64,000 nucleotides of DNA, taken from positions 1 through 64,000 of the forward strand of contig JAGWBI010000007.1 of assembly GCA_021295965.1 (NCBI GenBank), in the 5' to 3' direction. The translations under genes and the position numbers were made by a program. Shown here piece by piece: positions 12,967 to 59,551 of this stretch (the stretch's first letter is position 1; each line of letters begins with the position of its first letter). The notes under the pieces were generated by a model. The model was not told the DNA's origin, searched no databases, and was given only the letters and a program-made list of their open reading frames with translations. The DNA comes from Dehalococcoidia bacterium (GTDB taxonomy: Bacteria; Chloroflexota; Dehalococcoidia; Lucifugimonadales; UBA3495).

Positions 12967-13296
12967 GTGGTTACCCCCCATTCCTTTGCCGAAATCGTGG
13001 CCGAAGTCGCCCGAAAACATTTGCGGGACGACCTGCCGACCGCCACCGTGCAGGCGCGCCCGATAACCGACCTCTACGGCGATCCGGGCTTCCATCTGCG
13101 GATACTGTACGACGGCCACGTAGAAAAGCCGTCTCCCCGCCTGATGACCGGTCTCTATCACCGCATGTGGCCGGACCTGGTCAAACACGGCATTGGAGAT
13201 GAGCTCATCAGCCACTCTTTTATTGACAAAACGGAAGATAGCCTTTGGTCCTTACCGGCAGGACCGGCAACCCACCTTCCAGAGAGCAACCAATGA
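12967..13296 (+). CDS. Small protein, putative antitoxin partner of the downstream HEPN protein
   Basis: A 109-residue protein starting at GTG 12967 after a GGAAGG about 6 nt upstream. I do not recognise the family. It has an N-terminal helix-like stretch (FAEIVAEVARKHL) and a middle beta-like segment (GFHLRILYDGHVEK). Its TGA overlaps the next ATG as ATGA, so the two are translationally coupled. The antitoxin role is inferred from position, size and the HEPN neighbour. Confidence 0.6.
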   Translation: MVTPHSFAEIVAEVARKHLRDDLPTATVQARPITDLYGDPGFHLRILYDGHVEKPSPRLMTGLYHRMWPDLVKHGIGDELISHSFIDKTEDSLWSLPAGPATHLPESNQ

Positions 13297-13775
13297 ACTG
13301 GGAGGCCCTGATTGCGGTAAGCGAGAAACTGGCGCAAGTGGAGCATATTTCCGATTCAGACGTTCAGACTGGAGTAGCCCAGCTCAACAAAGCCGTCAGC
13401 GTGGCTTACTATGCTATGTTTCACGCCCTGGCACAAAACAACGCGGACAGGCTGGTTGGCGATTCGGAGTCTGACGGGGAAACCGTCGCTTGGCACAGAA
13501 TCTATCGCGCCCTCGAACACCGCACAGCATACAGGCAGTTGAGCGAATCACGGCTCGGGAATTTCAGCGACCAGGTTAGGCGGTTCGGTTCTACCTTCAG
13601 AGACCTGCAGGATAGCCGCCACCGAGCCGATTATGACCCGCAATCATACTTCGCCCGAACCGAAACTCTGAACTTGATTGCGGAGGCTGAATCTGCCATT
13701 AGGGATTTCCTGACTGCAACCATTGCGGAGCGCCGGGACCTGGCCGCCCACGTATTATTCACGTCACGGGGATAA
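13293..13775 (+). CDS. HEPN-domain protein, probable RNase toxin
   Basis: A 160-residue helical protein with a HEPN-like core: AVSVAYYAMFHALAQ (residues 34-48), a common helix of UPF0332-type HEPN proteins, and a later helix RHRADYDP that matches the R-x-ADY pattern of that group. HEPN proteins are often RNases in toxin-antitoxin and defence systems. The canonical R-x4-6-H motif is ambiguous here (RIYRALEH is a candidate). ATG 13293 is chosen because it forms a 4-bp overlap with the upstream gene. Family likely, toxicity inferred. Confidence 0.72.
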   Translation: MNWEALIAVSEKLAQVEHISDSDVQTGVAQLNKAVSVAYYAMFHALAQNNADRLVGDSESDGETVAWHRIYRALEHRTAYRQLSESRLGNFSDQVRRFGSTFRDLQDSRHRADYDPQSYFARTETLNLIAEAESAIRDFLTATIAERRDLAAHVLFTSRG

Positions 13776-58978: not shown

Positions 58979-59551
58979 CTAAACTTCCCTGCCGTGCCCC
59001 AGCAAAGCGGCCACAATCTCCGGCGCTACCGCATCCACCCTGGCTTGAATCGCCGCCGTGTCCAGCGCGGCGACCGGATGTTGCAGGTACACCGACCCGG
59101 CGTAATCTGGCCGGCCCAGCGAGATGATGTGCTGTTCGGCAGCGGAACGGAACGCTTTGGTGTGTACCACCACAGTCCGCACGCCCCGGTCTTCCAGTTC
59201 CACTGCGTCGCGCAAACTGCGCGCCACGCAGCTTCCTCAATCCCCCACCGCCGTCACCACGAAGTCGCACTCCGCCAGCTCGTCGATGATCTCCGGCGCT
59301 GCGGGAGCGGAAAACACCCACTTGGAGCGTACCAGTGATTGCATCATGCCATATTGGTCGGCCAGCCGTTCCCGGATGGCGTCCAGTATCACGTCGGCAT
59401 TGCCCTTGCGGTTGTCCAGAAATCCGCCGCGCAGTCCCTCCAGGGTTTCCAGCGGGGCCGCCGGCCGGCGCTCCGGTTCCTCCTGTCGGTCGGTGGGATC
59501 CACCAGGCCCAGGGCGGCGATACGAGCGTGCAGATCATTCAAGGTGGTCAT
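58979..59551 (-). CDS. UGSC-motif selenoprotein, in-frame TGA read as selenocysteine
   Basis: The frame from ATG 59551 runs MTTLNDLHARIAALG to FVVTAVGD, meets TGA at 59239-59237 and continues GSCVARSLRDAVELEDRG to a TAG at 58979. Read through, the protein has 190 residues with selenocysteine at 105, giving the motif U-G-S-C that names a known selenoprotein family seen mainly in marine bacteria. A SECIS-like hairpin follows the TGA. The Cys107 two residues on could form a selenenylsulfide redox pair. The upstream partner (59579) ends 27 bp before the ATG and add starts 9 bp after the stop. Sec insertion genes are not in the window. Confidence 0.85.
59203..59231 (-). promoter_or_regulatory. Bacterial SECIS-like hairpin after the in-frame TGA
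   Basis: On the minus strand: CTGCG, TGG bulge, CGCGCA, loop GTT, TGCGCG, A bulge, CGCAG. The two stems are 5 and 6 bp. The apical loop begins with G and lies 19 nt after the TGA, inside the usual bacterial window of about 16-37 nt. SelB would bind this loop. The fold is read by eye, without an energy calculation. Confidence 0.75.

Follow-up and report, generated by a model that had tools for sequence, protein, structure and literature searches.

Within the first 64,000 nucleotides of contig JAGWBI010000007.1 (GenBank assembly GCA_021295965.1, a Dehalococcoidia bacterium), hereafter called the window, a gene interrupted by an in-frame TGA appears as two fragments. Our sequence comparisons confirmed that these fragments make up one 190-residue protein, a further member of the known UGSC selenoprotein family, and the UGA at codon 105 is almost certainly decoded as selenocysteine (Sec). 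Taking all analyses together, this protein and the product of an adjacent gene, hereafter the partner, most likely form a two-subunit reductase of small organic molecules. Since 2008, UGSC, a family of unassigned function, has ranked as a major aquatic selenoprotein family (PMC2398784). The gene itself is one more well-supported member of that family, and its surroundings matter more. Less expected are the many UGSC copies in SAR202-type Chloroflexota, each paired with the same uncharacterized partner.

The minus-strand frame runs from an ATG through 104 residues to the TGA, continues at once with Gly-Ser-Cys, and reaches a TAG after 85 residues past the TGA. A preliminary description of this DNA had given the same motif, coordinates, and lengths, all of which are borne out by the read-through translation. 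The read-through protein matches the Pfam UGSC family PF24696 with 156 bits (gathering cut-off, 25 bits), residues 16-184 aligning with model positions 2-171. Each half alone also exceeds this cut-off (69 and 62 bits), and both lie in register on the model (positions 2-92 and 95-171), so that automated annotation would not necessarily call two short hypothetical genes, as the preliminary description had expected. The full protein scored 119.4 bits with the NCBIfam equivalog model NF041046 (UGSC_fam), whose curated cut-off is 125 bits; the gene is therefore filed under PF24696 and not under the equivalog model, and a pipeline relying on NF041046 could miss it. With the UGSC family (PF24696; NF041046) the gene shares a full-length match, the U-G-S-C motif, homologues that carry Cys in place of Sec, and a hairpin after the TGA. 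It differs in falling 5.6 bits below the equivalog cut-off, in belonging to an orthologue group with Arg111 and Arg114 instead of the Cys and His of most Sec-type relatives, and in sitting in a many-copy lineage. Orthologues in eight congeners are 84-92% identical, and all have the TGA. Plus-strand frames overlapping the gene were not regarded as coding. The features are located in Table 1.

Table 1. Positions in the window of the UGSC gene, its elements, and adjacent genes
Feature	Positions	Strand	Remarks
UGSC-family selenoprotein gene	59551-58979	minus	190 residues, Sec105 included; TAG stop, 58981-58979; read-through translation
TGA codon, selenocysteine 105 (almost certain)	59239-59237	minus	Column with TGA or Cys only; Sec machinery in own genome
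Cys108 codon, presumed resolving Cys of the U-x-x-C pair	59230-59228	minus	Invariant in the 35-sequence alignment
SECIS-like hairpin	59223-59209	minus	CGCGCA-GUU-UGCGCG; 6-bp stem, GUU loop; covariation and invariant synonymous codons
Partner gene	60619-59579	minus, same as UGSC	346 residues; ends 27 nt upstream of the UGSC gene
Adenosine deaminase gene	58969-57935	minus	Begins 9 nt past the UGSC stop

The genome encodes selA (546 bits), selB (356 bits), and selD (379 bits), and ARAGORN found a tRNA-Sec with anticodon UCA. Among 60 relatives, 55 have selA, and none of the 30 best genomes lacks it. Column 105 in an alignment of 35 homologues holds a TGA or a Cys codon and nothing else: the Chloroflexota copies have TGA, and those of haloarchaea, Roseovarius, Variovorax, and Arthrobacter have Cys. 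With U read as C, column 105 does not vary in this alignment, and neither does G106 or C108; the motif reads UGGC in a few relatives and UGSC in the window copy. Two loci read separately, outside the alignment, carry a Cys form (Embleya) and a TGA form (Acidovorax sp. T1). Median dN/dS (the ratio of nonsynonymous to synonymous substitution rates) was 0.081 before the TGA versus 0.102 after it, calculated from 36 orthologue pairs among nine orthologues including the window gene; by this measure, purifying selection is equal on either side. As an internal control, the partner gene has TGA, TAA, or TAG as its true stop, depending on the orthologue, whereas every UGSC orthologue keeps TGA at the Sec position.

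These data bear on two further explanations of the TGA. It could be a real stop, in which case the locus would hold either a gene in decay or two short, independent genes; indeed, a standard gene caller would stop at 59237, and two other UGSC copies of this genome seem disrupted in or close to the motif. We regard this as extremely improbable in view of the equal purifying selection on both sides, the conservation of the TGA in every orthologue, the covarying hairpin described below, the full Sec machinery in the genome, and the free interchange of true stops in the neighboring partner gene. A changed genetic code, with TGA encoding another amino acid, or a sequencing error is hardly credible either. 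We found no point in its support, and several speak against it: the stop of the partner, TGA in the window, is TAA or TAG in orthologues, the same in-frame UGSC TGA is present in independently assembled genomes and is retained in nearly every UGSC match listed across the class, and elsewhere it is replaced by Cys codons only.

Decoding of the UGA as Sec is also supported by the hairpin, which resembles a bacterial Sec insertion sequence (SECIS) element. Bacterial SECIS elements generally have a G among the first loop bases, and the loop in the window begins with G. There are 13 nt between the TGA and the stem, which starts at nt 14, and 19 nt from the TGA to the loop, as the preliminary description had stated. 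In 36 distinct Sec-type genes with the hairpin at the same distance, 97.7% of stem cells are paired, with 15 two-sided changes. Covariation as high was obtained in none of 500 shuffles, which ignore the relatedness of the genes; sliding the 3' partners by 1-3 columns, which allows for relatedness, lowered stem pairing to 6-74%. Most Cys-type genes have a disrupted upper stem (4/8 and 3/8 pairs). In addition, codons 5-9 past the TGA, which correspond to the hairpin, form the longest invariant run of synonymous-capable codons among the nine orthologues, against a background of 21 invariant codons out of 126 such codons. The base changes behind Arg111 and Arg114 pair with each other (CG for UA), which indicates that the RNA stem outlived the change of protein sequence. 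The preliminary description had named the Sec genes, the TGA column, and conservation past the TGA as places where its selenoprotein interpretation could fail, and on each of these points that interpretation is supported. The partner gene, the copy-number expansion, and the link to glycine reductase reported below go beyond it.

The partner gene gave no Pfam or NCBIfam match in our profile searches. Cys75 of its product is invariant. Its relatives adjoin UGSC at every examined locus with enough flank, and these cover SAR202-type loci as well as plasmid loci of haloarchaea, Roseovarius, Variovorax, Arthrobacter, Embleya, and Acidovorax; the sole UGSC copy of the window genome without a partner (C67) sits at a contig end. 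Across the 60 relatives, UGSC and partner genes occur in the same 47 genomes, and neither occurs alone in any. Their copy counts are equal in 51 of the 60 (r = 0.99; 280 and 284 genes in total). Mirror-tree distances of the two proteins are correlated as well (r = 0.78, with no value as high in 2,000 permutations), a correlation that could come from linked inheritance alone. In Acidovorax and in one copy of the window genome (C19), UGSC and partner form one open frame through the TGA. Given the shared copy number and the wide taxonomic range, joint function is very likely, and we are confident that the two proteins act together. Sec insertion combined with this joint action, leaving the chemistry aside, is likewise highly probable.

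Two haloarchaeal plasmids have a Cys-form UGSC flanked by two different partner copies, a partner-UGSC-partner order hinting at a heteromeric complex. The conjugative IncP plasmid p2-T1 of Acidovorax sp. T1 carries its TGA-type UGSC-partner fusion near transposase genes, and the fused frame continues into a transposase-like segment. In the window, the partner and UGSC genes lie in one frame; in-frame read-through from the partner into UGSC was considered and rejected, as orthologues have a TAA or TAG stop and differing spacing.

UGSC shows a remote link to GrdB (glycine/sarcosine/betaine reductase selenoprotein B, PF07355). A comparison by hhalign of the UGSC profile with GrdB-type selenoproteins from the same bacteria, taken at full length, gave a probability of 77% and a score of 43.8, with Sec aligned on Sec, and the best score among 40 column-shuffled controls was 21.2. 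Besides this remote profile similarity, the two families share a hydrophobic strand, U-G-[ST]-[CS], a helix, and E-x-x-G-[IV], as well as a thioredoxin system that lies nearby in some UGSC loci. UGSC differs in being about half the length of GrdB and in having a partner that is unrelated to GrdE at the sensitivity used. PF07355 (GrdB/PrdB) had no match in the UGSC protein, PF24696 being the only Pfam family found, and UGSC is therefore not filed as GrdB. The PF07355 model stops at the residue before the GrdB Sec (residues 1-347 of a GrdB-like protein); the Sec-containing, UGSC-like end is absent from it, which may explain why the link between UGSC and GrdB has not been drawn. PrdB-like selenoproteins of the same bacteria (TUPxC) also have Sec in a U-x-x-C motif at the equivalent place, but their hhalign match to UGSC is weak (probability, 11%). 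Profile comparison gave no signal for the partner as a relative of GrdE, GrdB, or PrdB; its probability with the GrdE profile (PF09338) was 0.2%, although a remote relation could escape such a comparison.

GrdB, the Sec subunit of glycine reductase, binds glycine with release of ammonia, and thioredoxin serves as reductant of the complex (PMC13188914). Judged by the hhalign comparison, UGSC may work like GrdB. On comparative sequence evidence, SelB and tRNA-Sec decode UGA codon 105 as Sec, directed by the downstream hairpin. We propose that UGSC and its 346-residue partner would form a two-subunit reductase that reduces or cleaves small organic molecules, in which Sec105 would act as nucleophile or electron donor. 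After turnover, a selenenylsulfide would link Sec105 to Cys108, the putative resolving thiol, and thioredoxin with thioredoxin reductase would reopen it in the manner of GrdB. We put a GrdB-like, thioredoxin-driven reductase step at slightly below an even chance; trxB beside three Cys-form UGSC loci speaks in its favor. The various UGSC copies probably serve different substrates.

Several points weigh against this proposal. The partner has no detectable GrdE relation, and the enzyme would thus not be a glycine reductase of known composition. The similarity to GrdB is remote and finds no support in a fold match: the predicted UGSC model, which used only ten close homologues (predicted local distance difference test, pLDDT, 76; predicted template modeling score, pTM, 0.72), gave only weak matches with Foldseek and VIA-align (best Z, 7.3), with no thioredoxin or GrdB structure among them. 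Searches of solved-structure sequences with the UGSC, partner, GrdB-like, and PrdB-like proteins yielded nothing useful, and the predicted partner model (mean pLDDT, 57.5) was too poor for a fold search. At SAR202-type loci, searched within short flanks, we found one distant thioredoxin-like match; the thioredoxin genes lie near some Cys forms. Finally, Sec insertion is shown by comparative sequence evidence and not by protein chemistry, and the 3.23-Mb genome is only a draft (86.6% complete, 5.9% contamination).

UGSC could instead be a selenoprotein of the thiol-disulfide or peroxide oxidoreductase type with a thioredoxin-like fold, the partner being a substrate or a chaperone and not half of a reductase. 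Such a fold was put forward in the Global Ocean Sampling (GOS) paper, U-x-x-C is a common redox motif, and the thioredoxin genes found near Cys-form UGSC (trxB in Roseovarius and Variovorax, trxB and trxA in Arthrobacter) would suit any thiol redox enzyme. We nevertheless consider it rather unlikely. The UGSC model shows a Rossmann-like alternation of strands and helices in which Sec sits where a strand and a helix meet, and the best structural neighbors are not thioredoxins, all matches being weak. In addition, the further neighbors of UGSC are catabolic genes that vary by locus: CoA transferases, luciferase-type monooxygenases, RraA-type and DUF6282 proteins, and uptake systems. Such surroundings fit a catabolic enzyme better than general redox defense.

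With regard to copy number, we found nine UGSC loci in the window genome, of which seven are intact with TGA and two are damaged. Copy numbers are 6-10 in congeners (this genome counted among them), 2-13 in other genera of the family, and 0-5 in other families of the order; at least one copy was present in 133 of 393 sampled genomes of the class. The nearest relatives (Dehalococcoidia, SAR202 cluster bin87) suggest a SAR202-type placement for the window. In a survey published in 2016, UGSC selenoproteins numbered 33, from 26 organisms, and the main groups rich in selenoproteins were Deltaproteobacteria, Clostridia, and Synergistetes (PMC5029168); in our comparison, a single genome can have as many as 13 UGSC genes. 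Expansions of flavin monooxygenases, the enolase superfamily, and dioxygenases in SAR202 have already been published, in a paper whose main text contains no word beginning with "selen-" (PMC6946804). Among the papers searched, none joined SAR202 and selenoprotein, although the expansion may still have been reported.

Collectively, the obligate partner, the remote GrdB link, and the thioredoxin neighbors provide a concrete, testable idea of UGSC function. We tentatively suggest, at rather less than even odds, that UGSC and its partner represent a hitherto undescribed class of two-subunit reductases, dependent on selenium, driven by thioredoxin, and distantly akin to GrdB, which has expanded to 2-13 pairs per genome in one SAR202-type family and forms part of its known broad catabolism of resistant organic matter. 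If so, selenium would be a major catabolic element in this family. Both the obligate partner and the multiplication of UGSC in this lineage deserve to be followed.

One damaged UGSC copy (G000:C37, ~13278-13743) has kept the TGA but lost ~19 nt, including the hairpin, with a shifted frame; the other (G000:C45:46594-47082) has lost seven codons in frame, the Sec codon included. In both, real decay and an assembly effect at the palindromic hairpin are not distinguishable. The adenosine deaminase gene following UGSC in the window was rejected as a functional partner, with no relative of it beside UGSC in nine relatives with flanks. The selD gene (G000:C8:23659-24582) has an in-frame TGA of its own, and the selenophosphate synthetase SelD is probably itself a selenoprotein. 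On the same contig as UGSC, past the end of the window, a further gene with an in-frame TGA (G000:C51:75165-75590) encodes a PrdB-like selenoprotein whose motif reads TUPLC, and genes similar to it were seen across relatives.
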